64,000 bases of DNA from Branchiostoma floridae (Eukaryota; Chordata; Leptocardii; Amphioxiformes; Branchiostomatidae): NCBI RefSeq assembly GCF_000003815.2, contig NC_049983.1, positions 19,165,508-19,229,507 of the forward strand, in the 5' to 3' direction. A model generated the notes under the pieces. The model did not search any database. It had not been told where the DNA came from and saw only the letters and a program-made list of their open reading frames with translations. Both the position numbers and the translations under genes were made by a program. Within the stretch, counting starts at the first letter, position 1, and every line of letters begins with the position of its first letter. Positions 25,509-61,239 of the stretch are shown in pieces.

Positions 25509-25514
25509 TTTATT
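25509..25514 (-). terminator. Candidate polyadenylation signal of the giant transferrin-repeat gene
   Basis: The minus strand reads AATAAA 293 nt beyond the TAG stop. It is the first canonical hexamer I saw downstream. Transcript ends would settle it. Confidence 0.45.
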
Positions 25515-25806: not shown

Positions 25807-25884
25807 CTAGTTCCAGGGGAAGCCCAGCTCCTCGCTCCACCGCTCATTGGAAGATGGCTGACGCTCGGTGGAGTGCCATGACTC
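25807..25884 (-). other. Terminal exon and stop of the giant protein
   Basis: A CCCCCAG acceptor precedes a short exon ending in ELGFPWN and a TAG stop. The preceding exon ends on a complete codon with a GTTTGT donor, so the frame is consistent. Confidence 0.75.
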
Positions 25885-31800: not shown

Positions 31801-34800
31801 AAGACTTACGATTTGGTCTTTTCACATAAATGATTATCATACATTCAAATGTAGCAGTATGCTTAACTTGCTATAATGTACATTTGTAGCATCAGCACTG
31901 TCAGATTCTGATGGCAAAGAAACAAGAAAATGGTAATTTGAGAAGGTCTGGTAGCTGCATTTCTTCTGAATTCTAAGCAGTCATGCTTTCTTTACAAGAA
32001 AACGAATATGCATTTTGTTACTGCTCACAGTTTTGGTACTGTCCTTGGTGCTGAATAACAAGTTTTCCATTACAACATGGTAACACTTTGGTTTTTAAAC
32101 ACTGGATGGGAAACCAACAAAACCAAGATTCAACTACAATGTATGTAGATCCAAAAGTACTTTGAGACTTGTATACATCATAATTACAGTGACTAATAAG
32201 AAAGACAAATAAAGTCAAAACTGGTCAAGTACTGTCTCTGAGCTGTCATTGTCGCAAAGCTACGAATGAGATCATAATTACAGGAGTTTCAAAAAGCCTT
32301 TAGCATTATTCTTTAGCTACAATTTTGAAAATTGCTATCAAAGCCATGACTATCAGGAAGCTTCCCTTACATGGTCCTCCATAACCTTGAAGTTGAGATG
32401 AAGGTTCACATCAGTAAGCTGGGAGCGGATGTGGATGTCGTTGATGGGGACGGACTCAGCATCGGAATCAAAGTAGTAAAACAGGTTCCTACAGAACAAA
32501 TACAATAGGTCAATCATCAAGACAGGTATTGTAAATCCATTCAATAATGCGGTCGGGAATTTTGGTGGTTTGGGGGAAAGGGAGAAAGGGAGTAGTTCAC
32601 AGCATTTAATTTTAGTGATGAGAACAAGGTTCTACCTAATAGAACAGTAGCTGGCCTCAGCACAGCAATCAAATAATTGCAATGATAAAATTTTAGCGGT
32701 TGAATAGTACTCGCTAAGTTTAAGTTACCGCTAAGAAATCAAGAATTACTGTTGATATATCAGATAAAGAATGCAACAGATCATGGTACACTGATTTGAA
32801 TCTTTGCACACTGCCTGAAATTGGTTGCAATGGACCACAATACACAAAAGGTCACACAGTGAATGCAGAGTTTCAGAGAGCCCATACTTTGGGATGAGGC
32901 TGATCGGAGTGTTGGTGCGGGACTGAACGTGCACAGGGATGTCCATGTCAGTCACAGGGCGGTCCTGCCTGTCCTGCTGGCTGGCGCAGGAAGAGGGTGC
33001 TTCTTCAGAGACAGAGATGTGGATCATGCTGGTCCAGTCCTGACACTGCTTGTTCAGCCAGTACGGCGGGAGGACGCGGGGCCACCAGGTCCAGGACTTG
33101 GTGGGGAACGGGTACCAGAAACGTGGGTACCTGGTGGGGATGACAAAAATAGACAATAGTCATGATCAAGTCTGGTTTAATGAAAAATGACACATCAGTC
33201 AAATCTTCAACACATGAAGGTTTCAGTTTAATCTGAGAAAAGCATGCTATATTTGCAGCAGCAATAAAAATTTGATACAATTTGATGAGAAACTAAATCT
33301 AAACTAAAGTGAGCTGCTTTACAAAGCTGGTCTCAAATACTTATTAGTTGTAATATTAATGCGATTTATTTAATAACACATGCATGCTTTAGGTAGAGCA
33401 GCTGGATTTAAAAAAAAAAAGATTTTTCCCTAGATTTTATATCTAAATCTCATATGTTATAGTTGAATGAAACAATCTATATTCAAAATATTGAGCAGTC
33501 CTACCATGCAGGCCAGATAGCAGGGTGGTTGGGATCCTCTGACAGAGCCTGGTCCTGCTCGCTGGGGAACATCCATGTGGTGGGGGGCAGGTCCCAGTTG
33601 GGCGGGGTCGGCCACTGCTCGCACCACGGCACAAACACCATGCTGGACACAGCCTTCTGCACTGAAGCCAGGTCACCTGGGGGAGGGGGGCGGTTGTGTT
33701 GTAAGTACTACATACTTTTAGTTTTCCTTCCCTGTCACCAAGGGGGGCGATTGTATTGTAAGTATGAATAATATATGAGTTTTCCTTCAGTGTCAACAAG
33801 GCTAAACCAGGAAAATGTCAGTACAGTTTCCTGCTGACAAATATGACTTGATTATAAATCTAAGCTTTTTAAACTTTTGTGCAAAATCAGCATCAATTCT
33901 GAACAAATTTCTGGAATAACTGGATCTAAAATCTGTAGTGCTACATTAGTACATTAGCTACAAGTGAAGACCATCAGAAGTGAAAAAACTTTGTGGACAA
34001 ACAGACTGCCCCTTCGGGTACCTGGCAATAGGACTGACGATGATGATACTATAAAAATATTTCCTTGGCTCCCCTGTTCCACTCAGTCAACAGTACTTTA
34101 GTCTACACAAGGTACGATGTACGAGGAACTGAAACGCACCAGAGAAGGACAGAGTAGGACGGCCGTTGTTGGAGTACTGGAAGTGGTGGTGCCTGTAGTG
34201 CTGGTAGAAGTCATCATCAGCGGTCAGCTCCTGCCTCTTAGTCTCAGTACTGGTGTGGACATCATGCTGCAACAGTACAGAGAAAATGTCATTATGATCT
34301 GAAAAAAGAAAACAAGTCTGTAAAATTGGCATGTAACAACAATCTATGTAATCTCTCACTATCAGTAGCATACTGCTAGCTAGTGGTGCACAAAATCTAT
34401 TCATCCATCTATCCTTCTATCCATTCAAGCACACAAGTACGCATACATGCACTCATCCATCCATTAATCCATCCATCCATTTATCCATTCAACCACACAA
34501 GTACTCATCCATTCATTCATCCATCCATTAATCAATCGATGCATCCATCCATCAATTCATTCCAGCAGGCCAACAATCTCTTGCTTTTCCACTTAACAGC
34601 AAAATACTATCCATCCAACAAGAAAAAGTTGAAACAAACTTTTTGCTTTCCCTTACATTCTACATGTAACACCATGACATCACATACCCAGGCCTTGCCC
34701 TGATGCCTTTCCTCAGAGCTGTGCCTGTGCTGTCCCTCCTCGGAACTCTGCCATCTCTCCTCGGAGCTGTGCTGTCCCTCCTCTGAGCTGTGCTGTCTCT

Positions 34801-37800
34801 CCTCTGAGCTATTCTCATCCCACATTTGCCAGAGGCTGTCCCACAGGTGAGAGATGGGGTTGCTGTCCTGGTGGTTCCTCCTCTGATGATGCCTCTCATG
34901 GCTGCGGCTCCCATGGCTCTGACTCTCCTGGCTCTGACTCTCATGGCTCTGACTCTCATGGCTCTGACTCTCATGGCTCTGACTCTCATGGCTCTGACTC
35001 TCGTGACTGCGACTCTCGTGACTGTGTCTCCTGGAGTGTTCCTGATGTCGGAGGAAAAACATACAGTACTCTTGTTATGTCTCCTCTCCCTTAGTGTACT
35101 TCAATGGTAAAAATTAAGGCAAAATATCAATTTGTTTTGGTCTTAGTTAATGAACTACCTGTGAAGAGCTGTCTTCCCTAGAAAGCTCACTCTCCACAGA
35201 GTGTTGATGTGGGTCCTGATGACGATGATGTCGAGAATGATGCTGGTTGGTAGACTGATGAGAAATAGGAAAACATATCTTAATATTGTGCATGTATTAT
35301 CAAATAGAATACACATGGTTGCTACAGGTAGGGCCAAAACTTATATGTTTGTAGTCATCGTCTGAAATTCTACAAGTGTATAATTTGTTCACTATCTTCC
35401 ACATTGAAAGAAATAGGATGCAAACAGAATTAGAAACTACCTTGGCATCAGAGGTGAAGACGACGCCATCCAGACCATCCCTGATCCACAGATGTCCACC
35501 TTGGTTCACGGAAGCGTGGACGTGGTAGCGACCGTTGTGACCCTCGGCATCTTGAATACGCAAGTTCGACAGAAGCACGGGACGACCTTCGCTGGTGCTC
35601 AGAGCACGCTGTTGGCCACTGGTCCTCATGGAATGCATGTCTGAAAGGAGTATGTCATGTGCTATGGATTACACCAGGACTTTCACTTGCAGGTACCTTA
35701 AAAAGTAACATTTTGCTAAATAAGTTTATGAAGGTTAGACATCCAGGTAAACAATATTCAAAAACAATTCAATCTCTACAAATGGGAAACTAAGCAATCA
35801 TGATTTACATTTGATTGACTTTTACATATGATCTTTAGGAGTTAGTGGTTTAGCCAATTTTTTAGTTAGCTGTACATGTACTTGTATTGAATTGTTCTGC
35901 CAGTTCATTCTAGTGATGCTGAAGAGTGATGGATGTCACCTGAAATATCTGGAGTAAATATCCGTTTTTTATCCAGTTGAAGAGATTAAATTGTTTTTGT
36001 ATTTGAATTTTTGCTAAATACAATAAGTCATGAAAAACTAGTACAAGATTGATTAAGGTGTTACATATCGTCTGTCTGGCATTGCACATTAAAAAACTGT
36101 GAAAAGATGAAGATACTTGTGCCTACCATGATGCTCGCCAGTATGGTGACTGCGGAGACAGCGCAGGTACTCCTGTCCCAGCCACTCCTCCCAGCTGTTC
36201 TTGCTGCCCACCTCCACCAGATGATGGGTGTCGTCACGGAACAGCAGGTCGTGGCCGCCGAAGGAGGAGGAGTCAAACAGGTTGAAGCCGCGATCGTTCT
36301 CATCGGAACCAAACTGCTCCTGTGGATGGAGACAGATTCAAGGGTTAAAAACATCCTCGACATTATTGACTATAGGAAGCTTATTTGCTTTGAAAATTCT
36401 TCATATACTGGAGAGAGAGAGTTCTATGTGTCATTTAACATTTACAAAATTTGGATACATGTAGCCATGTTTTATGTCAACTTGAAGCATTATTGGTACC
36501 CATCAGCAAGCTAGCTTGCAAAACCTGCAGATCTCACCTACAGACACATTTACTTACAATGTAGTCTACTATTTTACTTTTTTTGCCTGCCAAAGGACTC
36601 TAAGGATATTAGGAATGACCTTGCTATTAACAGCTGGCAATTGCCCTTGCAAGTTCCCTTTTCACTTACAGGTTACAGGCATGTCAAGCAAATAGAAAAA
36701 ATCTAGGCTGTCCTAACAGTCCTTTGTGCACCTAGAGTACTATGATATATTTTAACCCAGCATTCAGCCTACCTGAGCTTCCTTCAGCATACGCACAACC
36801 CTGTCCACCCACTGCTGGCTCTTGTCCTCAGACGTCATCACCGCGTGGGACGGAACACGGGCCAGGCTGCACTCACGCCACTGGTCCACGGGGCGGCGGG
36901 AACCATCCGGGCACAGCAGCTCAAACTCGCTGGAGCGCAGGCCAGCGGCCCAGTTCTCAGGGTTGTGTCCATCAGTGTTGTCCTGGACAGTCTGGTGGTT
37001 GATAAAGGCAACATCTCCGGCTCCCTCAACAAGGCACCTAGCAAGGCAAGGTCCGATTAATGATTTGATGTCTATATGATGTTTTTCAAGTTGATGTCAA
37101 TATGATGTCTTTCAAGCTTTTACCTTCTGTTTTCTTTTAAGAGATAGGAACCAAAAATTTGATCTATCTTGAAGATGTGGTTCATATTATTCCTTTATTT
37201 GTTATACCTGAAGGCCCCAGCATATCCATAGTACGGCTCGTTCTTGTTCCTCACACAGTGGTTCTCTCCAGCACCAGCACACAGGGAGCACAGGTTGGAG
37301 GGGTTGGTGTTCTGGGGATCATACTCGGGGCTCTTGGCACCTATAGGTTTATAAAACAATGAATAAGTTAGATATGTACATGTAACAAGACACAAGAGGT
37401 GATTTACAGTCTTTAATGAGTTTGCAATGTTCTGTAGTGTAAGGCTAAACAGTGCCCTACAGCTTTAACCAGACTAGTCTACTATCTGGAATACAAGATT
37501 AACCAACTCACCAGGCACACAGCTCTGGCTGAAGAAGTCTCCCACAGCCTGAACCAGACTAGTCTGACCATCAGTGTGAACAAAGTCCTGGTCTACCAGC
37601 CAGCCGGTGGGGATGATCCAGCCAGACGTCTTGCCGATACCGGTGTGGCAGGACTTACGGCCATGCAGGTTGTTCATGTCGATTTCCTGGTTGTCCTTAC
37701 GGACCACAGCAACAGCCCAGTAGCTGGCATCACCTGAAAGTGACACAACGCAAAAGAACAATCACATTTCAGCACCAAGGACATTGCCTGGAATAAAAAA

Positions 37801-40800
37801 TTTACAATCACATACACACATACATAACTTCAACTACGCTACAACTAGAAGTTTCTGTGTGTGTTTGCTTGTTTGTTCGTTTGTTGCTTTGCCATTAACG
37901 AGCAAAGCCTGCATCTTATTCAGGTTGGTCTGGTAACAGGTCGTCTCCCTGACACCATGTCCAACATGATATGCAAGCATCAAATTTGTACATTCTAATT
38001 TCAGTTAGACACATATGAAAAGCCAGCTGCTACAAATACCTACCATTTCCATAGTCCTCCCCCATGATGGGCCTCATGTCAAACCTAGATCCAGCCTGGT
38101 AGATGTCTCCTCCATCCAGGGTGATCACATCAGCCTGGAGATATATATATAAGATAGGATCATTGGCCTTTGTCCTTCTGTTTTCACTTTCCCCCCTAAT
38201 TTGCCCATGGGGATATTCAATGGTGATGATAAAGTACCAGTATAAGGGTCCAGTCACATGTCTTATGACTGTTCTATGATTGCAAACAGAAGACATTCTT
38301 GACAGCCATACGTGTGTCGTGTTACTGAAAGTGCTGCCTTAGATTTTTGTAGATGTAGGTTCTGTCACAGCCTGCTTAAAAATCTAACATCACAATTGTA
38401 TGACATCCCTCCACAAATATCATCCCTTCTCCAGATGATATATGAATGGTGATTGGTAAAAGCAAGACTCCAAGAGAAGCTGTCATTCATATAACCAGTG
38501 ATAAAATGGCCTTTCACTTGATGTAAGTTCAAACTGTATCCAAACTTTTGAAGCCAAAGTGCGTTGCTTTCCATATATATTTGACATTCTCATACTTTAA
38601 AAATGATGGAAATGATGGAAACGCTGACTTAAGTAAACACACCTGGTTCATGTGGATCTTCTGCATACACTGTTCAGCATTGTCAGCCTGCACACACTTG
38701 ATGGTGGGGAAGGTAACATCATGAGATTCCATGGTCCTGCTCAGCTGCTCACACTTCTCCCTCTCAGCGTCTGCGGTCACGCACCAACGCACCTGGTTAT
38801 CTGTATAATGTAAGACAATTTCATTTATTTATCGGTTTGTTGTTCAGCATGCACAGACAGGACTGCCCAACTAGCCTGTGGCTATTACAAAGGGCTAGCC
38901 TTACTGACAGAGACAAAGACAATGCTAATTGGAATTGCAAATCGACAGGATACTTTAAGTACATATGTCATATGTTAAGTACATAAAATGATAAAAATAA
39001 GAATAAACAAAGAACTTTTATATGTACATGGTGTAAGATAGCGTACATAAAGGTATTTCTTCAGTTACCTATCCCATTGAGATTGTTAGGCCACAACAAG
39101 CAAATTATATGGATGACATCTGTTCAAAAATCGACTTTTGCTTCATTTAAGAAGAATGAAAAAGGAAATTTTGTATACATTCAGGAACAGTCAACATGGC
39201 AAAAGTGTACTTGTAGAAGCAACAGTAGAATTTATCATAATCACAAAAACCACAAGAAGTACCATATGATACCACATACCGAGCACACGTTGAGTCCTCT
39301 CTTCATTGCGATGGATCATGCTACGAATGGATGTCAGATAGCTGGAGCCCAGTAACTTCTGCCACGTGTTCCGCTGGCCCACCGGGACCAGGCGCTGCAC
39401 GTTGTCACGGAACATCAGGTCACGACCTTCAAACTTGCTGGAGTCAAACATCTGGAAATCACTGTGCTTTCCAAAATGCTCCTGTAAAGATATTTGGGAA
39501 GAGAACACAATAGTGAGATGCAGCGTACAACACTCTATAATTAAAACAATGACAAAATATGTAATCCAAGAAAGGTATAAGACTGTTTAATTAAGAGCAA
39601 AAATTATTCAAGGGATAATTAAGAATTGAATGGCATATGATATCCTATAAATTGAATGGCATATGATATCCTAAATAAATCAAGTGTGACATTACAACTG
39701 GTTCAATTACCTAGGTGATGGAGTGCTTGTCTTGAATTTGGGGGATAGGGGAATCTCCCAAATGCAAGGCAGGAAAAGGAGATTGGCACCTCCCCTATAT
39801 ACACTATTATGGAAGGATTCTAATGAAGTAAGATCAAGACTGTCACTCCCACCTGTGCCTGCATCAGGATGTTGACAATCTGCTGCAGCTCGCTCCTGCT
39901 ACGGGGAGACGTCATGACAGCGTGGGACGGGACACGGGCAAGGTTACAGTCCCTGGTGAAAGAAGAACACAGAAACTTTGTAAAAGTCAAAATAAAACTT
40001 TTGTTTAGACTGTTTAAATCTCAACCATTTCTGTCATTTCTTTTAATGAAGTATGAAGTTTGTGTCAAAATACAACAGATTCTGAGGTCAGCACTGTTTA
40101 GGACTATTGCAACAACATGTGTTCAGATATCATTAATGCCATTCAGCAAAATAGGTCCATACAATGCCTCCCAATGCCCATTCTTCTTGACAGGGTTAAC
40201 TACTTCATGTTGCCTGCGATGAGACTGTACTTACTTGTACTGGTGCCACTGCTTGCGGGAGCCATCAGGGCAGAGCAGCTCGTAGTCATTCTCATTCAGG
40301 TTCCTGGTCCATTGCTCCTCACTGCGGCCGTTGGTGTTCTCAAAGATGGTATTATGGTTCACGAAGGCAACATCACCAGCACCCTCAACAAGGCACCTAG
40401 TGGTAGATGGAAACATCAGGTAAGATTGATTACAAAACAGAATTGTGCTGGCCACTTCTCTTTAAAAGATTATCCTAAAAAAAGCATACTGTTAACTGTC
40501 AAAAGATAAGATACCAAGTTTCTTTCAAGATTGATACACTAAATCAAGTACCTGAATGCTCCAGAGTATCCATAGTAGGGTTCGTTGGTGTTGCGGACAC
40601 AGCGGTTTTGTCCCTCCCCGACACACAGGGAACAGAGGCTCTTAGGGTTGGTGCCGTCAGCATTGTACTCTGGGCTCTGGGCACCTGAAGATACACATTT
40701 TACAATATCACAAACAGCTTCTCAAGGTGTGAAAACTTCTGCACATTCCAAACAAAACACAATGACTGAAGGTGTGTCAGAAACCGTACTTCATCAAAAC

Positions 40801-43800
40801 AATTGATACAATTAAAGCAAAACACACCACCTACAACATTTGACTTCATAGGAAAGTACAAAAAGGCACATAGTAGTCACTTCTTACTGACCAGGCACAC
40901 AGCTCTTGCTGAAGAACTTGCCCACAGCCTGTGGGATGGACTTCTTGTTGTCCACCTGCATCTGGTTGTTCTGGATCAGCCAACCAACCGGGACGTTCCA
41001 GCCAGAGGTCTTACTGATACCGGTGTGGCAGGACTTACGGCCACGCAGGTTGTTCATGTTGATCTCTGGGTTGTTGATTCGGGCAACAGCTACAGCCCAG
41101 TAGCTGGCATCACCTGGAAATTTTACAATATGTACTTTTTAACGATTATTGCTATTTCAGCACCAAGGATATCCCTATGATAACAATACAAGAATAGGCT
41201 TCTTTTCATAGCAATATGATACAAAACGACACTCAGAGCATTGCACACAGCAAAAACATGAAAGAGATGGTCATCAGGTATTGTCTGTTTGTGACAGGAA
41301 GACAAGAACATATGCCAGCTTTACCATTTCCGTAGTCCTCTCCCATGACTGGCACCAGGTCGTACTTAGAGCCTGCTGTGAGGACGTCTCCTCCATCCAG
41401 AGTGATCACATCAGCCTAAATGTAAATAACACATTTAATATAATACAGAAAGATATATCACACATTTGTCACATTCTTTGACTGCCCCAGACAGTACCCA
41501 AAGCTATGCTGATACATTGCAAATTGTAAAAAGATGGATATTGTTGCTTGCAGTTATCACCTGGTGGTGTGCAATCTTGTACATGCAGTCCTCAGTAGAC
41601 TGGCCCTGCACACACTCCAGCCTGTGGTTCAGTCTCCTGCTGAAGGCACGGCTCATCTCCTGGCACTTCTGCTGCTCCTGGCTGGAGATGGTGCACCAGC
41701 GCAGGGTGCCTGGGGTAACAACATAGTATACTTGTTTACACACAATTTTCCATTGAAAATGATCTCACTCACTCACTCACTATCTGGTTTAGCATCTGTT
41801 GTTCCGTCTTTCAGGGGTTGGACATTTTGTCAAGTCCTTTTGGTCTGATTGCTGCCCTCCATCTGTCCCTGTCAAGGGGGTTGGCATTTTGCAAGTGCAG
41901 TTTTCTAATATCTTCATTGACACTGTCTACCCATCTCCTCTTGTGGTGCCCATGTGGGTTCTGACCCACTACAGACAAGTTCATGACCTTTCTTGGCCAG
42001 TTGCCATAGGCCATTTGTCAAGATCCAAAAATAAAATGCATGCATTATTGAAATTATAAGGATGAAATATAAAGGTTTGATCTTACTGTGGGGCTGGACT
42101 GGCTCAGCAGCATGGTGACTGTGGAGACAGCGCAGGTACTCCTGTCCCAGCCACTCCTCCCAGCTGTTCTTGCTGCCCACCTCCACCAGATGATGGGTGT
42201 CGTCACGGAACAGCAGGTCGTGGCCGCCGAAGGAAGAGGAGTCAAACATCTGGAAGCCGCGATCGTTCTCATCGGAACCAAACTGCTCCTACAAGTTTGA
42301 AGAGATGAGCTTCTTTGTTTGTTCTGCCTAACTGGTAAACCACTTTGGGACTACAAATGCAATTTGATGGTTAATGCTTTACTAATTATGATCCTATACT
42401 CATGCAGTAAATCATACTTTTTTATGTCTTTTATTAATATCTTGTTTTATTTCTTGCAGACTAAGCACCGGATTTACAAATAGCTCTATGCTTTTGATAC
42501 TTGAAACTGTTAACAATTGCTAAAATTATATTTCTGGACATAATTCACAGGATATCAAACATTTCTTCAAACTACTACCTGCTGCCTAACCCAATACAAA
42601 ATAAAAATTTGGGTGCCAAATGGTTACCATAGCAAACTGAAGTTGAAAGTCCACTCACATGTACAGCAAAGACTCAAACACAAATATGCTGTCCTTACCT
42701 GAGTGTTCTTCAGCCACTGCACCACTCTGTCCACCCACTCCTGGTCCTTGTTGTTGGAGGTCATCACGGCGTGGGACGGAACACGGGCCAGGCTGCACTC
42801 ACGCCATTGGTCCACGGGACGGCGGGAACCGTCAGGGCACAGCAGCTCAAACTCGCTGGAGCGCAGGCCAGCGGCCCAGTTCTCAGGGTTGTGTCCATCA
42901 GTGTTGTCTTGGACAGTCTGGTGGTTGATAAAGGCAACATCACCAGCTCCCTCAACAAGGCACCTGGTGAGGGTGGGGAAGAAGAGTCACATAGCTACAC
43001 AGAACTGCTGAACTACATGATATACATAAATTGATCATTACCTCCATAAAAAACGGTATAGTTTTTGGTGTGTGTGTGTGTGTGTGTGTGTTTGTCTGTG
43101 TGTTTGTTTCTTCTGGATATTTGTGGTCACCATAACTCTAGAACCTCTGGATGGATTGTAATGATATTTGGTATGTGGGTAGGTGTTGGAAAGATGAAGG
43201 TCAGGGTGACCTTAGTACTGAAGCAGAACTTTGATTTTTGCACCAGGTGTGACTTGCACCTAAGAAACCTATCAGATAAAATCACAATATCTAAGAAAAG
43301 TAGTTACACTGAGATTTTTATTTTTGATTTGATGGTGTGTTATTGTTTGGCAGCATACCTGAAGGCCCCAGCATATCCATAGTACGGCTCGTTCCTGTTC
43401 CTCACACAGTGGTCCTCTCCAGCACCAGCACACAGGGAGCACAGGTTGGAGGGGTTGGTGTTCTGGGGATCATACTCAGGGCTCTTGGCACCTATAACAG
43501 CAAGCAACAAAGTTACTGTGTGTGCTTTTTTTCTTGCAGGTGTCTTTTCTTTTCTGACTAAACTAAACTGTAATACATGTATATAAAATACATGGACAAG
43601 ACTGCCACAATCACTTAGAACTTGACTGATGGAACAGCCATCCAACCCAAAAAATTAATCTTTTCTTGAGCGATATTGTCAAAACTCACCTGGCACACAG
43701 CTCTGGCTGAAGAAGTCTCCCACAGCCTGAACCAGACTAGTCTGACCATCAGTGTGAACAAAGTCCTGGTCTACCAGCCAGCCGGTGGGGATGATCCAGC

Positions 43801-46800
43801 CGGACGTCTTGCCGATACCGGTGTGGCAGGACTTACGGCCACGCAGGTTGTTCATGTCAATTTCTTGGTTGTCCTTATGGACCACAGCAACAGCCCAGTA
43901 GCTGGCATCACCTGAAGGGGAAGAAGCATAAAGCATTAAACAATTATCTTTTGAAGTGTGAAACAACAGCAATTATGAGCTGTCATCTCCTTTTGGAGGT
44001 TTAACTTTGAACTTTCATCAACCTTTAGACTGCCAAAGAAGCCATTTGGCACTAAGTTTGTATTGATCATGTGGTTAGGCAAGGAAGAAGGTTAAGACAG
44101 GTAGGTACGTTAGAAAATAGATAAAAAACAGGCCACAGCTTCACGTGGCCGCTGTACCTACCATTTCCATAGTCCTCCCCCATGATAGGCCTCATGTTGT
44201 ACTTCATCCCAGCCTGGTAGATGTCACCTCCATCCAGGGTGATCACATCAGCCTTCATGGACAATACAAAAAAACACATGTTATACATTAGCTACTGTAA
44301 ATATAGAAATATTTTTGGTGGTTTTATTTTAAAGATGACCCCTGCAAAAATGCCTTTCCAAGGCTTTACTACTGTACAACATAGTTCTTTCAACCATGAA
44401 ATTAAAACACTGCAAATAAATTAATTCACAGTAATCTAGTTATGATTGTCATGGCCCAGGGTAAACAATCAATGCTACATGTGTCTGCTCTATGTGTACA
44501 ATTCAGATATGATAAATGATTAACAGGTTGGTAGCTGATGTGTGTGTACCTGGTTCATGTGGATCATCTGCATGCACTGATCAGCGTTGTCAGCCTGCAC
44601 ACACTGCACAGTGGGGAAGGACATGCCCTCCTTCTGCACACGGCTCAGCTGCTCACACTTCTCCCTCTCAGCATCAGATGTCACGCACCAGCGCACCTGC
44701 TTGTCTGGAGGTACATGGTTCAGATATTAAGTCAGAAATCAGGTATTATCATGCTGTATTAGTTCATGTTAAAGTCCTTCCAGCACCAGATGTATAGGGT
44801 GGCACCCAACTCTTTTCCCCTAACCCACAAATATGCGCAATCACTACGGTCAGGGGACTAGTTCACTGGAAGTGGTGCATGTTCAACTTCCATACCCTTT
44901 CCCAAGTGCTGAGTGCTAAGGATAGAAAGTATAGTGTAATACTATGTAGAACACCCTACCTGGTGAAGTTTTAACAGCCCCCACATTTGGGTCAGTCAAA
45001 GCCAAGTTTGATCTGGCCCCCTCCAAATTTGCCCTCAAAGGGGTTATTTTGGGGTAATAAAGAAGAAGAAAGCTTTGCCTATCATTGAAAGGTAACATTA
45101 CAACCTTTGCTCTTAATCATGATGAAATACGGAATATTAAGTAGTACATACCAAGCACGTGTTGGTTCCTCTGCTGGTCGTGGCTGATCAGGTGACCAAC
45201 AGACTCCATGTAGCTGGAGCCCAGCCACTTCTGCCACGTGTTCCGCTGGCCCACCGGGACCAGGCGCTGCACGTTGTCACGGAACATCAGGTCACGACCT
45301 TCAAACTTGCTGGAGTCAAACATCTCGAAATCACCATAAGACTGGAAACCAAAATGATCCTGCAATATAGAAAAGGGAGGACATCGAGTTAGCACTACTG
45401 AGGTTACCTGTATGTACCTGTATGTAAATTTACATAATCTCCAAGCAGATCCTACGGTAGCATAAGACAGTATCAAAAGCTGCCAGAGAAGCGAAGCCGG
45501 CTTAGGAGTGTGTTTTGCTACCGGGGATCTGCCTCCACTGAAACAGGGAGGAGCATTTCTATTCAACAATGGTGTTGCTGCCCCACCCTGTTGCCATGTG
45601 CTAATTATTTTACGAGCAAATTACACTGGGACAAAGTCAGTGACCAGCACAGGTCTCAGTTGGAAGTTAACACCAAACAGGAAGGAGGGCAATTAGCGCC
45701 TACACTGCAAGCACAGTTTGAATGGGAAACAATTGGATGTTAATAGCCTTTGTTCTAGCCGACTGGGGGCAGATCCCTGGTAGCAAAACACACTCCTAAG
45801 CCGGCCTCACTCCTCTGGCAGCTTTTGATACTGTCTTATGCTACCGTAGGATCTGCTTGGAGATTAAATTTACAAATGTCTTTCAAAACAAGCAACAAAA
45901 AACAAATGTCTGCAAGAAAAAACAACAAAGCATGCAGTAAATAGTAGGACACAGTAAGCTTTAGGAACTCTCACCTGAGCCAGTTGGAGGAAGTCCACAA
46001 TCTGCTGAATGTCTGTCCTACTACGGGGAGAGGTCATGATGGCATGGGATGGGACACGGGCCAGGTTGCATTCCCTGGTGAAAGAGCAAAAAGGTATTGT
46101 GCTCAAGGGTATTGTACTCATAAACTAAGCAAATGTGAATTTAGCTTGAATGTTCATATTGTCAATTTGTAAAAAAAAAAATCCCTCAGTCAGCAGTCAC
46201 GTGACAATAGAATTGCCAAGTAGAAAGCTCCAATATAGCAAATATGTGTGTAACATAGTTATACTGTTGCATCAAAGCATTCCTACTTGTACTGGTTCCA
46301 TGGCCTCCTGGAGCCATCAGGACACAGAAGTTCAAAGTCATCCTCATCCAGGTTCCTGGTCCATTCCTCCTCGCTGTGGCCGTTGGTGTTCTCATACACG
46401 GTGACATGGTTCACAAAGGCAACATCACCAGCACCCTCAACAAGGCACCTAGGGGTGGAAGACAAGAATAAGAAGATTGAAGAACAAGACATTTAGTAAA
46501 AATATATATAATGGTATGAAATTGCAACAGTTCAGTTTTCTCACAGCCGTTTTCAGTTTTTTCAATGAAGTATCATATCACAACAGTTCAGTTTTCTCAA
46601 AGCCTTTTGAGTACCTGAATGCTCCAGAGTATCCATAGTAGGGCTCGTGTNNNNNNNNNNNNNNNNNNNNNNNNNNNNNNNNNNNNNNNNNNNNNNNNNN
46701 NNNNNNNNNNNNNNNNNNNNNNNNNNNNNNNNNNNNNNNNNNNNNNNNNNCAAGGACATTTTTTCCAGAATTCATAATGTAATAATGTAAATATTTTGGG

Positions 46801-49800
46801 GAAATCTTTTTTCTTCAAAAACACAAGGTTTCAACTGACCAGGCACACAGCTCTTGCTGAAGAACATGCCCACAGCCTGTGGGATGGACTTCTTGTTGTC
46901 CACCTGCATCTGCTTGTTCTGGATCAGCCAGCCGACCGGCACATTCCAGCCGGAGGTCTTACTGATACCGGTGTGGCAGGACTTATGGCCACGCAGGTTG
47001 TTCATGTTGATTTCCTGGTTGTCCTTACGGACCACAGCAACAGCCCAGTAGCTGGCATCACCTGAAAGTGGCAGAAAGCTTTAGCATAATCACATTTTCA
47101 GCACCAAGGACAAAGAACTAATTTTACTTTCCAAGTGTGATGGGTCGTTCAGTGTAATATAACCAACTGTTGCCGCATTGCGAAGATAATGCATTATGCC
47201 GAAGGGCAGTTATACCAGCTATATAGATATATAGACACAGATACAGCAACAGATACAGAAGTAATTTCAAAAGCCATCATTCAACTATAAGTCTGAACTA
47301 CATAAAAATATCCCCCCGCATCTTACCGTTTCCATAGTCCTCTCCCATGACTGGCACCAAATTGTACTCAGAGCCAGCAGTGTAGATGTCTCCTCCATCC
47401 AGAGAGATCACATCAGCCTGAAGATCAAATCAAAGTGTGATAAAAATGAAATGCAGCTATATATCCCAGTATAATTACTGTTTAAAGAACTTTTACTGTA
47501 AGACGTAAATCTAAGTATGCTATTCTAATCTTGGCAGTCGGAAATGTTGATCTTCATGAAAGTTGTAGAAAGCAGACATACAAAGTAAATAGCAATGTTC
47601 ATTTTCTTCATGCCGCAGAATACCCTCAGTCATGTATGCCAAAAGGCTAAAAATGCATGCTGTAAGAGGCTTAAGGCTACATATACTTTCTGTTGTAACT
47701 GATGTATATTAAACTGTTGTGCTCCTCACCTGGTGGTGAGAGATCTTGTACATGCAGTCCTCAGTAGACTGGCCCTGCACACACTCCAGCCTGTGGTTCA
47801 GTCTCCTGCTGAAGGCACGGCTCATCTCCTGGCACTTCTGCTGCTCCTGGCTGGAGATGGTACACCAGCGCAGGGTGCCTGGGTAATGGCATTGCACTTA
47901 TTATACAAAATTTCCATTGAAAAGTTACAATGATTCAACACAAAAATGCTTGCATTACTCAAATTATAAGGATGGAATACAGGTTTGATCTTACTCAATG
48001 CTCAAAATACTTTTTCAGCCAGGTTACTCAGGTGGCAACCTGAGTCAAAAGCCAGGTTGCGCCATCAACAATTAAATTTTAGCTTGCCCCACTTCCAAGT
48101 TATTACTCTCTTCAAGTAGGCTACTTATCCATTATCTTCTCTTCCAGTTACACATAACTTATATGTTTGTGATAAATACCAAAGTTCATGCACATAGGTG
48201 GCGGAAAAGCATTGTACAGACTGCAAAATTTCAGATGGCACATTGAGCTACCTATATTTAGAATACGGTTGTCCTTAGCAAAATGTGTTTGCATTTGGAA
48301 GTGTGCAATTGGGTATTGTGATCACTGCTTACTGTGAGGCTGGACTTCCTCGGCAGTATGGTGACTGCGGAGACAGCGCAGGTACTCCTGTCCCAGCCAC
48401 TCCTCCCAGCTGTCCTTGCTGCCCACCTCCACCAGATGATGGGTGTCGTCACGGAACAGCAGGTCGTGGCCGCCGAAGGAGGAGGAGTCAAACAGGTTGA
48501 AGCCGCGATCGTTGTCATCGGAACCAAACATATCCTGTGGATGAAAACAGGTACAAAATTCAGCTGCCTCCACAATACAACAGTGAGATTAGATTGTGTC
48601 ATGATTATACAGTGAATTGTGAAGGTTGTCAATGATTTTGCAGTGGAGCTTAACAGCAAATTTTTGGCACTGCAAATTTGTCTCCTTTGAATTACTAATC
48701 TACTAAAGAATTGTATCAACAACAAATTTATATCACAGCACAACCCTCCTTTTTATCCTACCGCATAATAAGACCACAACAAAAGTAAATATAGTACTGT
48801 TCCCAGATTCTTCAAATTCCCCACCTGAGTGTTCTTCAGCAGCTGCACTGCCCTGTCTATCCACTCCTGGTTCCTCTCCTCAGATGTCATCACGGCGTGG
48901 GACGGAACACGGGCCAGGCTGCACTCACGCCACTGGTCCACGGGACGGCGGGAACCGTCCGGGCACAGCAGCTCAAACTCGCTGGAGCGCAGGCCAGCGG
49001 CCCAGTTCTCAGGGTTGTGTCCATCAGTGTTGTCCTGGACAGTCTGGTGGTTGATAAAGGCAACATCACCAGCTCCCTCAACAAGGCACCTGGCGGTCAC
49101 GAGCACATACCAAGGTTAGGTCTATTGAACTACCAATTTGAAATTCATAAAATCCATTTAAAGTCTTGGAACTCAAACCATGATGAGCATAGTACATGTA
49201 TATATTACCTGAAGGCCCCAGCATATCCATAATACGGCTCGTTCTTGTTCCTCACACAGTGGTCCTCTCCAGCACCAGCACACAGGGAGCACAGGTTGGA
49301 GGGGTTGGTGTTCTGGGGATCATACTCAGGGCTCTTGGCACCTTTGTGCAAAGAAGGAGTATATTTAGTGCTATACAATTTGGAGCAAGATAACAGAAGT
49401 TTGTCTAGCTGAAAATATTAACAGGCAAATATACAATAGCCAGAACATAAAAGACTTAAGAACTCTTCTCTCCATACTTTAAGCAATCAATCTGTTCAAC
49501 CAGACTGTAGACAACTAACATCGGGGTGTGTAGATTTATCTATATCTTGCATATGTGTGCTTTTTTTTACATAACAATGCCATTCGGGTTGCCATCATGT
49601 GTTTGCCTGTCATGTTGAATATCAATAAAGAGAGAACAATGACATAGTAAAAGATGTATATGCTAATTTTCTCCAAACTTTTCATTCTGGATAGATCCTT
49701 CTGACAAATAGGAACATTACAAGAGTAGTACATAAGGAGAAGTACAACAGTTACTATATTACACACACAAACCAACTCACCAGGCACACAGCTCTGGCTG

Positions 49801-52800
49801 AAGAAGTCTCCCACAGCCTGAACCAGACTAGTCTGACCATCAGTGTGAACAAAGTCCTGGTCTACCAGCCAGCCGGTGGGGATGATCCAGCCGGACGTCT
49901 TGCCGATACCGGTGTGGCAGGACTTACGGCCACGCAGGTTGTTGATGTCAATTTCTTGGTTGTCCTTACGGACCACAGCAACAGCCCAGTAGCTGGCATC
50001 ACCTGGGAAGGCAGAGCAACCGATTGTAAAACTTCAATCTCCATGTTACATCTACAGTATACCAACAGGCTAGCTCCTGAGGTGTGGCCAAAATCAAAAT
50101 CTTACGATGCTAGTAGGGAGGATCAATAGACACAAGCCTCTAAACACCTACATACACAACAGCAAGTACGTGGCTGTACCTACCATTTCCATAGTCCTCC
50201 CCCATGATAGGCCTCATGTTATACTTCATCCCAGCCTGGTAGATGTCTCCTCCATCCAGGGTGATCACATCAGCCTTCATGGGGAAATAACTGTTAATAT
50301 CTGGCATACAAATTGATCTATTGACTGATAAATTTACTGACTAAGCGCAAAGTCAAACTTAGAAGTACTTGGAGATAAGATTTCAAATTGATCTTGTCAT
50401 TGTTTGGCCACCTTACTTCTCTATTAGCCTGAGTACCATTCTCTGTAGGGACTGCTGGCTCAATCCTTTTGCTTGCTAACCACATGGGATTAAGCCAGCA
50501 GTCACTATGGAGGATGGTACTCAGGCTACAAACCTATATAATTTTAGCTTTAATAGCCTATAGCTGCCTAGTTACAAAGTTTGTACCTGGTTCATGTGGA
50601 TCATCTGCATGCACTGTTCAGCATTGTCGGCCTGCACACACTTGATGGTGGGCACAAAGCCACGCTCAGTCAGGGTCTTGCTCAGCTGCTCACACTTCTC
50701 CAGCTCAGCCTCAGATGTCGCACACCAGCGGATCTGCTTATCTATGGGTACAACATCATCATCATTGTTAGATAGGCTTGTCTTTTCTTCACTTTTCAGC
50801 TTTGATACGGCTGGTTGCATTAAAAAATGCACAATTATGACAAATATCACAAGACCAACAAGGATTTATATTTTGATCCATATCAGCTCCAAGTCAAACA
50901 GCAGTGATCAAGTACAGTGAAAACAGATGAAAGTCTAACTGTGAATCTCCTTTTACCTCCAACCACAAAATAAAACACAGCAAAAGTAAATGAGTTTAAA
51001 GCTTTATGTTCATCAATGAAAGAAGGAGAAGTATTTACTCAGGACACGCTGGTTCCTCTCCTGGTCCTGGCTGATCAGGTGACCAACAGACTCCATGTAG
51101 CTGGAGCCCAGCCACTTCTGCCACGTGTTCCGCTGGCCCACCGGGACCAGGCGCTGCACGTTGTCACGGAACATCAGGTCACGACCTTCAAACTTGCTTG
51201 AGTCAAACATCCGGAAATCACCGGTACCCTCAAAGCCAAAGTGTTCCTGCAAAAGAGAGGGAATGAAAGTCCATGCTTGTCACTGATAAACTATACGCTA
51301 TATACATGTAGTAACTTGTTACCAATTATCAATTAACTTTCTTGAGACATTTACTTTGAATCTTGAATCATTTGCAGTGGTTTTATTTTTGCAGTTTTTG
51401 CAATGACATTGCTTCACAATGTCATGATGACATCACCTCTATGTGTTTCCAATGCAATATTACTGTACTACGCAATTGCTTCAACCACAAACTTAAAACC
51501 CTTATACTGCCGAGCCCGTATATATACGGGTTGCACATATATGATGCCTGTATATGTGGGTCCAGTATCTTTATGGGTTTGGGGCATCTCTCACTTAAAT
51601 TAGGCATACCACAGCAAACCACATCGACTGGGGGGAGGGGGTAAATCTGCAGCAGCAGCATAGAATAGGTCAAGTTTTACTGATTTGATTAAGCAATCAG
51701 CTACGCCAGGGGGTTCGACTTGCAAAAATATTCCCAGCAGGACAAGGGTACAACACAAAACCCTTCCTTCCTTTCCTACAGCAAAATTAAGTTCCTGTCA
51801 ACATAGATGATTTTACAGTAAGTTCTGTATCTGCTCCTACCTGAGCCTGGGTCAGGACCTCCATGATCTGCTGCAGGTTCTTCCTGCTGTGGNNNNNNNN
51901 NNNNNNNNNNNNNNNNNNNNNNNNNNNNNNNNNNNNNNNNNNNNNNNNNNNNNNNNNNNNNNNNNNNNNNNNNNNNNNNNNNNNNNNNNNNNGCATGGTT
52001 TACATGAAGACTCCACCAAACATTCCCTTGCATCAAAATGGACCGTTGTTTTGAGTATCGCCCATTAACAATTAGTATTAGTTTATTGCAACATGGGACA
52101 GGGAACTGTAGACTAAAGCTGAAAGTCCCATTCTAAGTACTACAACCCTTTCAATAAATGTCAGGTGAGCAACACAGCCAGGATCAAACTCACGGCTCTA
52201 GTTCCAGAAGCAGGGTCACTTACCTATGAACTACACATGTAACTATTTAGCTAAGTCAGAGTTATTTTATATTTGCATGAATTTGTAGATCTATTAAAGT
52301 GTGTCTTACTTGTACTGGTTCCATGGCCTCCTGGAGCCATCAGGACACAGAAGTTCAAAGTCATCCTCATCCAGGTTCCTGGCCCATTCCTCCTCACTGT
52401 GGCCATTGGTGTTCTCATACACGGTGACATGGTTCACAAAGGCAACATCACCAGCACCCTCAACAAGGCACCTTGGGGTGGAAATAGCACAATAAGATGA
52501 AACGAAATCACAATTTCTTTGTACAATTTGCCCATTTACCAATTCACGTAACAAAATTCTGAAAGACTCTCTTATTAACTTCTTCAAGTTTGTACCTGAA
52601 TGCTCCAGAGTATCCATAGTAGGGTTCGTTGGTGTTGCGGACACAGCGGTTTTCTCCCTCTCCAACACACAGGGAACAGAGGCTCTCAGGGTTGGTGCTA
52701 TCAGGGTCGTACTCTAGGCCTTGGGCACCTAGAAATGTGCAGTGATCAATATATGAGATTGGAGGAAGAGGACAGATTGAAAAAAACAAAGTAGTATGCT

Positions 52801-55800
52801 ATATGGTAGACGTATGAAAGCATGAGTGTTTGGTTTGTACTGACCAGGCACACAGCTCTTGCTGAAGAATTTGCCCACAGCCTGTGCAACAGACTGCCTC
52901 TTTGCCACCTGCATCTGGTTGTTCTGGATCAGCCAGCCAACAGGCACGTTCCAGCCAGAGGTCTTGCCAATACCGGTGTGGCAGGACTTACGGCCACGCA
53001 GGTTGTTGATGTTGATTTCCTGGTTGTCCTTACGGACCACAGCAACAGCCCAGTAGCTGGCATCACCTGAAAGTGGCAGAAAGCTTTAGCATAATCACAC
53101 TTTCAGCACCAAGGACATAGAATGGTAATGTTTGGAAAACTTGCAAATTGCTTCAGTTGCCTTGTCATGTTCAAAATTAGTATTCACCAGAAAGCACCTC
53201 TACTTTAAAGCAAATCCATGAAGTATAAAACAATTTCTTTTAGCAAAGCAGACTACTATATCAATCAATCAGTTCTTTAGAGATTCCACCATAAGATGGA
53301 AGAAAGGATGAAGTTACTTCTCACCATTTCCATAGTCCTCCCCCATGACTGGCACCAGGTTGTACTTGGAGCCAGCAGTGTAGATGTCTCCTCCATCCAG
53401 AGTGATCACATCAGCCTATACATAGCACAAATTATCATTCCATTATGATACAATACTTTCTATCATGCCAAACATTCTGGGTAATCTTGCTAAATCCATT
53501 ACAAAATCGCCAAACAGTCCCTGCACATACAAAAATGGCTCAAACAAATCTTTAGTGTGTTGTAGATTGTATGTAGTAAGTAGATACAAGGACATCATAT
53601 AGAAGAATGTCCTTGATATGTATTACCATGTTATGAGAGATCTTGTACATGCAGTCCTCAGTAGACTGGCCCTGCACACACTCCAGCCTGTGGTTCAGTC
53701 TCCTGCTGAAGGCACGGCTCATCTCCTGGCACTTCTGCTGCTCCTGGCTGGAGATGGTGCACCAGCGCAGGGTTTCTATGTTGAAGGCAGATTTTTAATT
53801 GTGAAAAAGTATTGATTCATAAAGGAATAACCCGGTAATCAGTGATAACCATGCACAATGTGATGCATTGTGTGATATATGTCAACATTGAAGGCCCCTA
53901 AGACATACAGTGTAAGCAAAACACATCTGGACACATATCAATCATTGTCTGGAGATTTGACAAGTTAGGGGCATTGACCTTCGACCACATGCATGGGCAG
54001 TTCAAATCATGAACTGGCTTACTCTTAGGCGCGAACAAGCCTTGAGTAATATGTCCCTGATTTCCAAAAACACAGACCAAAAATTGATTTGCTAAAATCA
54101 ATACTCAAAATTTAATGTAGTCTTTAGAAGCTGATTATACTGTGTATGGTAAACCAATATTTCTGACAAGCCTAGGGTAAATTAAGGACATATCACAGTT
54201 TGCAAGTTTGCCCTTTGTACTTTGACTTGCCATGGTCAACACCTGGTCTCAAACAATAACAAGTCCAAAGTTCTGTAATTTCCTGTCTCATTCTCAGGTC
54301 AGGGCTAGATAAGTAATCAAAAGCAAATATGTCTGGCGTTCTGTCTTGTTTGCTACACCATAAATATTGCAGAACCGCAGACATGTTTTTTTTTTTTTTA
54401 TCTAGCTTTGGCCTCAGAATGGAGACTGCTCCAACTTAGTTCAAGCAAAACCATCTTGCTGATGATGATCAAAGCTATTTTCCTTTGCAAATCATGTTAC
54501 AGTAACAAAACCTACACTGCTAGAAATTGGGACCTGCAAAAAATCTGTGATAATTATATTGGATATTACAAACTGGGGAACCTATCGTATTAATGCAAAA
54601 CAATATTATTCTCAAGGTTCTTCTCAAAAGTGTTGATGTGGTTCAAAAACTGAAATGATATCTGACTGGTCTACAACTGAACTCTACAGGCTACTGTCTG
54701 AGATGTAAGAATTTGTTGGAGGAGGATGAAACCTTCTACAAAGTCTTAAAAAGGTTGTTACCAGTCTTGGAGTGGTGGGTGATGGTGGGTGCCTGGTTCC
54801 TGGAGTGGACGGTGATGTGCATGTCCTGGCTGATCTGGGCGTTGACGTGACCCTTGCCCTTCTGTTCCACAGAGATGGCATGGACGCCGAAGCAGTACTG
54901 GCCATGGGAGTTCTCAGGTACACTGCAAGTATACAGCATGATCTGAATAAATCTATTCCTATGTCCCACATACGTAATTGCAACTGTATGTTTACCGACT
55001 GGATATAAATTTTGAGTTAGAATTCCAAAGAGGACTATATAAAGAATTACTGATCACGAAGCATAAGATGCACATCACACAATACTGCAGTAGATGGCAG
55101 CTATGTATCTACTTCAGCTGTTTGTTTCCATTATTCATCTTTTGTAGAAGAAGTGATCCTAACTTTAAGAGATCTCGATGGTGTTTATGGGGAACAAAGA
55201 GTTCAGAAAACTGTCCTAAGTTTGAATTATTTGTGTTGCCAAGATAACAGTTCTAGACTAATCCAAGCCAGCCCATAGTTCCTGCTTACTGGATGGAGAG
55301 CTGGTTGGCCTGCTCCTGAGTCAGCTTGTTCAGGTTCCTGCGGGGCACACGCTGGCCACCCGCCAAGAAGTGCCACCCAGACGGCACACTCAGCTGGCAC
55401 TTGCACTTGTCTGTTGGTAAGGACAAGAGCATTTAATCCAACATTTGTCATAGACTGTGAACGAAAAAATCTAAAGCATCGCAAAATGATTAATGCATTA
55501 TGACGAATTCATTTTTGATAGAGAAAAATGGACGATTTGTACTTTATCTTGCACAGGACCTTAGGAAAGTTTATTAAGTCATACCAATAGTAAAATGTAC
55601 TACATTAAGTAATGATGTCTAGTAACGTGATACATGCTGATGCTAAAGAAAATTTCACTAGATCTCACACATTTTCAATTACATGGACCTGTGTATGTCA
55701 CCACTTATTATGCAGTAAGCCGTGTCCACACAAAGTTTATCAATACCGAAGGTTACATGATTACGTACTAGACTTGCAGGAGACCTCCTGGCCACAGTTG

Positions 55801-58800
55801 CAGAGAGTCACAGTCAGAGTCTCGGAGCCGTCCTGATCTTGTAGCTGGGCCTGGATGTGCAGGGGGATCACCTCACCTTCATTACCCTACAGGAGACAAA
55901 GAGCGGACTTAGAACAATTGTACAAATAGCATATCTACACAATACATGGCAGCACTATAGGTACATACTTTATTATAGGATATTTCACATGACTATAAAG
56001 AAAATGAGACATTGAAATTACATCAGTGTACTTCCTTTATTGGCTGAGCTTATCCAATAAATATGCTAATTGATGGTGAGAGGTCTAGGGATGACAGAAA
56101 TTGATGATGTAAATTTTAGAGTGTGAATTGGATTAATGAAAGACAAAGACCTAACTGCTGATGTAGACAGGTCCAAAGTGCATACTGTCAGTTGAAGTAC
56201 CAGAGTGTTGATCATACAATATTTGTATCTCCTGACCAAATAAAACCAAATGGAAAGCATTGCCTTTCTATTTGTTATGTAACAACTCTGCATATATGAC
56301 TATGGTCTCATAGAATGGAGACATAAAATCACTGTCATTTATCTCAAATTCATGAAAAAATTCAATATTCTCTCTTATTCTTTTTGGACAAGGATAACAT
56401 TAGGTTATACATATTAAGCACAAAGTGAGGCTACATGTGTTTTGTACCCCTCAAAATTATGTGTAAAATCATTTGGGTTAAGCTGGCTCATTACACATGG
56501 CAGGAACATTTTAAAACTGCCATAGCAAAACTGCAGGTTTATGCATATTTTGAGATTATTCTGTTTCCTGACAATGTCAAATTTTATCAAAAGGCACTTA
56601 ATTCTGGATGCAGTACAGGGCTCTAGCCAGCTCGAAATTTTTTTCCATCAGCCAATTCCCATTGTCGCGAAAACACTATTCCAGGAGTCAGAGAGACTGA
56701 ACTGAGACCTTGAAAAACAGGTTTTAATGAGATTATCGTATTGTCAACAATCATGACAATAGCAAAACAAACAGCCATGGACGGCGTCCCCAAGCCGCCT
56801 GAAGCTTCCACCATCAGATTTTTGTCCGTCAAGGTTGACGGATTGGTTTTAAAATTTTCCGTCACACGCAGCAAATTTCCATCAATTGACGGAAAAACGG
56901 ACACTGGCTAGAGCACTGATGCAATATGATGATGATGACAAAGTAAAACTTTATCCTTGCACAGTTGCAGTGGTGAACATCACACCACTAGATGGAAGGT
57001 TAACTCACCTGTACATGCTGCACCTGCAGTCTGGGCTCGTCAGGCTGTGGGCGGAGACTGATGAAGACACTGGCGGGCTCACTGCGCTCCACCTCGTCCT
57101 CAACAGTGTAGACAAAGTTGTCCACCCCACTGAAGTGTTCCCGGTCAGGGCTGCAGAACAAGAACAAGAAGACTGAGTCTCAAGGTTCTAAAACTGCTTT
57201 GAAAAACTTTTTTATCCAAATTCTGTCAGGTTGATCATAATGCATTGGACAGAGGTCCTGTGCAAGAAAGCTTTCATAAAACATGACAACATCTGTAAAA
57301 TTACTGGCTTTCTAGTTGCAACATTTTCCCCCAACAAGTCACAAATTAAAGATATTCTACTTCAAAAAAGGCATACAGGTGTGTGAATTACCATTGGTAT
57401 AACCTTAGCTACTATCAAGCAACACTAGCACAGCAACTGTTCAATTTAACATTTATCATCTGAGGGACATACAGCACTAAAATCTAATGAATCATGGCAT
57501 TGCTTATTTCAAGTACATATTTATGACTGTAAACTATCCACTGCTACACCCAAAATATTGACACTGGCACTCATATATTTTATGACCCATTGTCTTTAAA
57601 CTTGACTTTGTATTGTTTATTGGTCCTCAGCCATAAATCATCATGGACATGACATTAAACAATGGCTCAGACATGAGCACTGATTTTGTCTCAAGTTCTC
57701 AACAAACAAGGTAATGTTTTTATGACCTTTGTTGCAACATAAAAGCTCCTTGGTTGCAATTGTCTTGGCACTCAAAAGTCTCATAACCTTAACACTTGAG
57801 CAGTGTTGTTCAACTTTGTAACTAGTAAGCCCAGGTTTGCAACACACTTGAAAAATACTTCAGACAATGCTTGAAATGTCTCAACAAGACCCAAGTTGCC
57901 ATTGTACGATATGAAACTCTATGTCAAGAGCAATTTGAATTCCAAAGATATAAATTGGGCTGGTCCTGATGCTGTAAGGATCATTATCTTCAGTAGCCAA
58001 TGGGAAGCTTCAGATTCTACATGGCTTGTCCACTTTTGGTGACAATGCACAATGGTCATGGCAGAAATGGTTATGAGACAAAGAGAGAGAAACTTGTATT
58101 CAAGATCATTATAAATCAACGTGATGATTGAGATGTCAAAATGGCTGCCTTTAGAGACTGTCTTACAGCATACTATGTGACTGAACCATCTGACCAATCA
58201 CACTGACTTAACATCATTACTGCAGTTGTATCATTCACAGGTGGACTCTGAGCTGTGAACTTTTTGTGACCACCTGTTAACCAAAACTAATGACCTGTAG
58301 AAGTCATCTGATGATAACCTGATGTCTACAGATGTGCTCTACACATTTCTTGGCACCTTTGATCTGCCCTGGGCACATGTGTACCCTGCACGTGTGTACG
58401 ATCTGGTCTACACAGATATGCCACTGTTGTTCCGTGATAAAGCAATATACAGTAATTAACACTTTGCTGGCTGTAAGGCTGTATAAGCTGTTAAGAAGTT
58501 ACCTAATGTGTAGCTTTTTTATAAAAAGATAGCTGAAACTGTCCTTGTTGTACATTATACACCCCCTAATATTCTATAGTTCTTTTTTCCCCAAAAAATG
58601 ATCTGTGACATCCAACAATCAAATTTATTGGTGTGGCATTTGAGAGATTGTTCCCGTAGTCACAGGCAGCGCACATCTGGGGGACCACCAAGCCTCTCCC
58701 CAGTCTGCACATGACTGACAGTTGATTGTTACAGAAAGTGCTGACAGGACAGGTGGCGTGACCACAGGTAACGGCATGTGGTAACCCAGAAGTGTTGACA

Positions 58801-61178: not shown

Positions 61179-61225
61179 CTTGTCAGCTGTCCCAACTGAA
61201 CTGATCTCCCCCGACACAGCACCAG

Positions 61226-61233
61226 TATTTATA
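61226..61233 (-). promoter_or_regulatory. TATA box of the giant transferrin-repeat gene
   Basis: On the minus strand the sequence reads TATAAATA, 48 bp before the start codon at 61178. With the usual 25-30 bp spacing, transcription would start near 61200, leaving a 5' UTR of only about 20-25 nt. This is sequence inference; no transcript evidence is available. Confidence 0.55.
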
Positions 61234-61239
61234 AGGTCC

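Follow-up and report, generated by a model that had tools for sequence, protein, structure and literature searches.

A predicted six-lobe transferrin gene in the lancelet Branchiostoma floridae, with lysine in place of the carbonate-anchoring arginine in every lobe

Transferrin lobes are known from chains of different composition. Saxiphilin consists of two lobes with inserted thyroglobulin domains, the pacifastin heavy chain of crayfish is paired with a protease-inhibitor light chain, and a triplicated transferrin of Dunaliella has three lobes. In lancelets, a transferrin-like homolog from Branchiostoma belcheri was reportedly described by Liu, Zhang and Li in 2009; judged from citations alone, it is apparently two-lobed. 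An excerpt of a citing paper refers to this homolog for the differing iron binding of its lobes (PMC9774405). Melanotransferrin is lipid-anchored according to the title of another paper (PMC13213057). Lancelets are basal chordates, and the origin of two-lobed transferrins and the state of the chordate ancestor are still debated. Here, we analyzed a stretch of 64,000 nucleotides of the Branchiostoma floridae genome (contig NC_049983.1, positions 19,165,508 to 19,229,507 of the forward strand; "the window", with positions counted from its first letter), in which six consecutive transferrin lobes are encoded on the minus strand. With a probability of approximately 0.6, the encoded protein would be a secreted six-lobe mosaic with labile ferric sites, involved in extracellular iron handling.

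The lobes belong to two classes, A (6 exons) and B (7 exons), and are arranged as three B-A pairs in the order B1, A1, B2, A2, B3, A3. Exon types and phases, assigned from splice sites and lobe motifs, yielded 39 phase-compatible lobe exons from 53775 to 36127, of which 37 were whole and two were cut by gaps of 100 N. The number of in-phase exons in the original prediction for 36127..53775, also 39, is correct if both cut exons are included. Strict motifs recovered 36 of the 39; the 37th, exon 2 of B2 (47327-47417), in which ISLDGG replaces ITLDGG, was identified by tblastn and a check of the translation. The cut exons, exon 5b of B1 and exon 4 of B2, run into the gaps at 51893-51992 and 46651-46750, respectively, and their tails were found by tblastn and translation. 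Two further 100-N assembly gaps are located in the window, at 7854-7953 and 9302-9401. A lobe count with Pfam family PF00405 on the translated model, a check set beforehand, gave six lobes, all far over the cut-off (E 6e-97 to 6e-108) and spanning profile positions 1-325 or 1-326 of 328; the matches of B1 and B2 carry X stretches at the gap positions. Six full lobes without an intervening stop had been proposed. The six lobes and a sole, terminal stop were borne out, while "full" is, for B1 and B2, an extrapolation over 17 and 33 gap-hidden residues, respectively.

All four iron ligands were present in the five lobes with every ligand position readable, as were the three readable ones in B1 (Asp and both Tyr in 6/6 lobes, His in 5/5 readable ones). 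The carbonate-anchoring Thr was likewise found in all six lobes. Owing to a Lys at the position of the anchoring Arg in 6/6 lobes, the Thr and Arg carbonate pair that is a trait of the transferrin family was absent. The position aligned to Lys206 of human transferrin was Asn in every lobe, and the 12 cysteine columns common to six reference lobes were retained wherever readable. According to the excerpt available of PMC3125230, an Arg124Lys change in human transferrin makes iron release much easier, and the N-lobe of cod Tf1 carries a natural Arg to Lys change. Because this cod lobe also has Lys, the anchoring Arg is a usual trait of the family and not a strict hallmark. Since the carbonate-anchoring Arg is Lys in all six lancelet lobes, labile iron binding is likely, with up to six ferric sites that would be more labile than with Arg. 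The earlier claim that the protein could bind up to six ferric ions thus agrees with the readable ligands, all of which are kept, and shifts toward labile binding owing to the Lys.

To extend the gene beyond the lobes, candidate exons were chained according to their phase, the strength of their splice sites and their codon usage. The codon table of this chaining included some flank exons and was circular to that extent. The chain comprised 62 exons on the minus strand, from 61178 to 25807 (10,125 bases; 3,374 codons with one stop, terminal), and reproduced the transcript span of 25807-61178 given in the original prediction, from the signal-peptide exon to the stop. Gaps were kept as N in the spliced model and the two cut exons were assumed to be as long as their sister exons; 50 of the 3,374 codons are hidden in gaps. 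As a control, a free exon-chain search was made with codon statistics trained on the lobe exons alone. In the 3' flank, the gene strand scored 448 (16 exons) versus 37 for the other strand, and in the 5' flank 96 (5 exons) versus 0. All 12 shuffles of each flank, in which dinucleotides were preserved and up to 10% of the length may have been lost, scored 0 or 1. Scores for the lobe region, which was left unshuffled and whose exons had also served for training, were 1112 (37 exons) versus 51. In the model, a signal peptide and an adhesion-like region precede the six lobes, which are followed by a long tail with a Ser/His/Glu-rich stretch, a thrombospondin type 1 (TSP1)-like module and a cysteine-rich end. 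The only strong signal-peptide exon, at 61178, is preceded by a TATA/initiator-like stretch, motifs that are characteristic of core promoters. The predicted protein is most likely one secreted mosaic of approximately 380 kDa from one transcription unit. A single secreted six-lobe protein, as originally put forward, is therefore supported by the sequence as a prediction in which two exons are partly gap-hidden.

Coordinates of the features are collected in Table 1. Cadherin-like traces in the N-terminal flank were all below the Pfam cut-offs, and no Pfam family exceeded its cut-off in the C-terminal tail. A 237-residue piece of the tail had no genome match at E 0.001 besides its own exons. Of the 121 residues of the Ser/His/Glu-rich part, 31 are Ser, 20 are Glu and 20 are His, and its SHESQ repeats are encoded by a tandem repeat at 34893-35017, within the coding exon. 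The last 150 residues gave weak matches only in the PDB, TSP1-like and, probably by chance, to ribonucleases; the cysteine-rich last large exon had no Pfam match of its own. No hydrophobic C-terminal tail was seen by eye at either modeled C-terminus.

Table 1. Features of the predicted six-lobe transferrin gene, in window positions.
Feature	Position	Strand	Evidence and remarks
Putative core promoter	61179..61240	-	TATAAATA, then initiator-like TCAGTT 31 bases on, just upstream of start codon; by eye
Exon 1: start codon and signal peptide	61109..61178	-	By hydrophobicity
Five N-terminal flank exons, Big_9 / cadherin-like	54762..59469	-	PF17963 E 3e-6, over cut-off; exon chain
Transferrin lobe B1, 7 exons	51039..53775	-	PF00405 E 9.6e-100; N gap 51893-51992 cuts exon 5b
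Transferrin lobe A1, 6 exons	48333..50741	-	PF00405 E 2.4e-105
Transferrin lobe B2, 7 exons	45152..47878	-	PF00405 E 6.1e-97; N gap 46651-46750 cuts exon 4
Transferrin lobe A2, 6 exons	42087..44704	-	PF00405 E 3.3e-106
Transferrin lobe B3, 7 exons	39280..41709	-	PF00405 E 5.6e-108
Transferrin lobe A3, 6 exons	36127..38800	-	PF00405 E 1.9e-105
Fourteen C-terminal flank exons, Ser/His/Glu-rich one included	27573..35640	-	Sub-threshold Big_9 E 0.069
Ser/His/Glu/Gln-rich exon, SHESQ repeats	34688..35041	-	15-base unit, 8.3 copies
Thrombospondin type 1-like exon	27002..27160	-	Sub-threshold TSP_1 E 0.016, TSP1_spondin E 0.005; F-spondin module E 0.03 (PDB search)
Cysteine-rich last large exon	26331..26545	-	Cystine-knot-like by eye; may read on to stop near 26317
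Last exon and stop codon of model	25807..25884	-	Exon chain; AATAAA at 25514, then GT-rich stretch

Like lobes were 82-90% identical at the protein level and unlike lobes 56-58%. The ratio of nonsynonymous to synonymous substitution rates (dN/dS) between lobes was 0.28-0.50, which indicates that the lobes are under constraint. In a lobe tree that left out invertebrate transferrins, the A and B lobes formed one clade (support 98/96) and the melanotransferrin C-lobe the adjoining branch (85/89); the deepest split was poorly supported (53/7). This clade beside the melanotransferrin C-lobe suggests that the A and B lobes arose by a doubling in the lancelet line and do not correspond to vertebrate N- and C-lobes, unless homogenization has blurred the signal. 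Like exons had identities of 0.81-0.99, whereas the flanking introns (100 bases on each side) showed 0.47-0.62, with one stretch at 0.78. For random intron pairs (up to 60, pairs with N skipped), the mean identity was 0.50 and the maximum 0.55, a maximum that some of the like-exon intron values exceed. No self-match longer than 300 bp was found in the lobe region. The comparison looks like exon-limited gene conversion among the lobes. Assembly duplication as a source of the repeated lobes was rejected, with introns near random identity and exons far more similar. Among A-lobes, like exons were up to 98.6% identical (exon 3), with 0.87-0.93 at 4-fold sites and only 0.81-0.84 for exon 1.

The genome (513 Mb in 431 contigs, with the window on a contig of 29.6 Mb) was searched for other transferrin copies with the family profile and with the protein of lobe A3. 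Among the best candidates, matches were confined to three places: the six-lobe gene, contig C397 and a divergent gene on contig C8. On this best-candidate scoring in both searches, no canonical transferrin gene other than the six-lobe one was detected in the genome. A Pfam search of the genome for GFP was empty, yet a protein query gave 74 matches with E values of up to 10; because that family search missed what the protein query found, an empty family search carries little weight here. The fluorescent-protein family, probed with a lancelet yellow fluorescent protein, was large in this genome, with a best exon of 97% identity and clusters on contigs C17, C4, C14 and C3, in line with a lancelet genome. 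The 10 kb adjoining each end of the window contained no further lobes, 1,605 bases of one side being N. At C397:97448-102726, a partial copy contains A2 exon 6, B3 and A3 exons 1-3, joined in the same order as in the window gene and 93% identical to it over 1.6 kb, introns included; it resembles an allele or a recent copy. A second whole gene on C397 was rejected for positions 85001-108107 of 108,107, which hold these exons only. One flank of the fragment (2.2 kb) matched elsewhere in C397 and on C15, except for an unmatched part (984-1083), probably an N gap. Exon 3 of the C397 A3 lobe was 99.5% identical to those of A1 and A2, versus 98.2% to that of A3 in the window. Pieces of the divergent transferrin-like gene, approximately 25-43% identical, were located at C8:24355252-24361553; in these pieces, several of the positions that usually carry ligands seem altered, and further weak matches occurred at C8:24349523 and 24351058. 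Elsewhere in the window, an inverted repeat at 4090-4986, with 398-bp arms that are 99.7% identical and approximately 100 bp apart, is possibly a mobile element.

One transcription unit for all six lobes and their flanks is, from the arrangement of the exons, much the likelier organization. From B1 to A3, the inter-lobe introns measure 297, 454, 447, 377 and 479 bp, lengths also covered by introns inside the lobes, which span 92-615 bp with a median of 258; the intron between A3 and the tail measures 486 bp and that between the 5' flank and B1 986 bp. Every lobe border is a phase-1 intron, and six of the seven introns between blocks contained no signal-peptide-like start with a phase-1 donor. 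The repeat unit, a B-A pair, does resemble a two-lobe transferrin, as would be expected if three ordinary two-lobe genes in tandem had been wrongly joined. However, the introns A1-B2 (454 bp) and A2-B3 (377 bp) contain neither a signal-peptide-like exon nor a TATA-like hexamer, the joints are uniformly phase-1, and the second and third pairs would have no secretion signal. Because of the short introns, the one strong signal peptide and the common phases, tandem genes are held to be very improbable. Cleavage of one translated chain into two-lobe or single-lobe transferrins would be consistent with the ends of B1 (RNQR) and B3 (RTQR), which lie immediately before the next lobe and match R-x-x-R, the minimal furin-like site. 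B2, however, ends in RNQH, and by eye the A-to-B linkers are without R-x-x-R; there is therefore no regular cut site between pairs, and such a polyprotein is considered unlikely.

In the favored reading of one uncleaved chain, an ancestral lobe would have doubled to a B-A pair that was then copied twice more, giving six lobes with very short linkers; an adhesion-like region would precede them at the N-terminus and a long tail would follow. Each lobe would most likely close on one ferric ion, bound by Asp, Tyr, Tyr and His, together with a carbonate that Thr and Lys hold. Given the Lys in place of Arg in every lobe, the sites are proposed to release iron more easily than serum transferrin. The protein would then be an extracellular iron binder of high capacity that unloads easily, keeps iron from microbes and passes it to cells, with flanking domains that hold it in matrix or mucus, or enlarge it in body fluid. 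The matrix, yolk, shell-like or iron-sequestering role originally suggested stays speculative at the level of sequence. Flanks of an adhesion-like kind would suit a protein anchored in matrix or mucus, and equally a large soluble protein; to our knowledge, lancelets have no shell. Adhesion-like, TSP1-like and Ser/His/Glu-rich flanks, together with the change from Arg to Lys in 6/6 lobes, would also be consistent with lobes that serve mainly as a structural or binding scaffold, like otolith matrix protein, with weak or incidental iron binding. Cod otolith matrix protein lacks all key residues but one Tyr, according to the excerpt of PMC3125230. The lancelet lobes, unlike this protein and the melanotransferrin C-lobe, keep all readable iron ligands, and a scaffold function is regarded as doubtful.

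Several observations count against a single secreted iron binder. The model was read from DNA sequence alone. The gaps in two lobe exons, which are of indefinite length, could hide extra or broken sequence, and the His ligand of B1 falls in one of them. Iron binding with Lys instead of Arg would be an extrapolation for these lobes. In the B3-A3 intron, three signal-peptide-like starts were present, overlapping or weak, with donor scores of -2.4, -2.4 and 0.4; the original statement of no intervening signal peptide holds for the other six introns between blocks and is less secure for this one. TATA-like hexamers occur in introns B1-A1 and B3-A3. As no tail family was recognized over a cut-off, only splice phases and codon statistics join the tail to the lobes. 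The last exon is uncertain, a possible alternative being an end at a stop near 26317, with AATAAA at 26175. Finally, C397 lends weak support and is perhaps mis-assembled, because the surroundings of its fragment do not match the window.

We tentatively propose, as a possibility only, that the sole canonical transferrin of the lancelet is a secreted six-site mosaic, Lys-anchored throughout, that is fixed to matrix or mucus, serves there as a multivalent store or buffer from which iron is easily unloaded, and whose lobes were homogenized in exons and not in introns. Among the matches listed, no description of comparable extracellular iron handling in animals was found in the open literature. Six lobes that apparently stem from the lancelet's own rounds of doubling would demonstrate repeated and independent multiplication of lobes. 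Such a protein would offer a natural test of cooperation between linked sites, and its six natural Lys-anchor sites would provide material for the study of iron release.

The original prediction knew of no described six-lobe animal transferrin. None was found in the open literature either (titles and abstract openings, among the matches listed), while database protein models may contain one. Among solved structures, melanotransferrin (PDB 6xr0) was the best relative for A- and B-lobes alike (E 1.6e-182 for B3 and 1.1e-186 for A3). Melanotransferrin has two lobes and a full ligand set in its N-lobe only, Asp, Thr and Arg being lost from the C-lobe, whereas the lancelet gene encodes six lobes with the ligands kept and Lys for Arg. 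The lancelet model further differs by its mosaic flanks and lacks, by eye, the hydrophobic tail that would correspond to the C-terminal lipid-anchor signal of melanotransferrin. Serotransferrin and lactoferrin share the lobe family and the Asp-Tyr-Tyr-His ligands with the lancelet lobes, but have two lobes, anchor the anion by Arg in those lobes that were compared, and carry no such flanks. The Branchiostoma belcheri homolog comes from the same animal group and probably represents a related gene. Like the lancelet protein, the pacifastin heavy chain carries more than two lobes per chain, although three in a crustacean versus six in a lancelet. Saxiphilin, a match of both B3 and A3 in the PDB searches, shows that transferrin lobes can combine with other domains, and the triplicated transferrin of Dunaliella that they can multiply.

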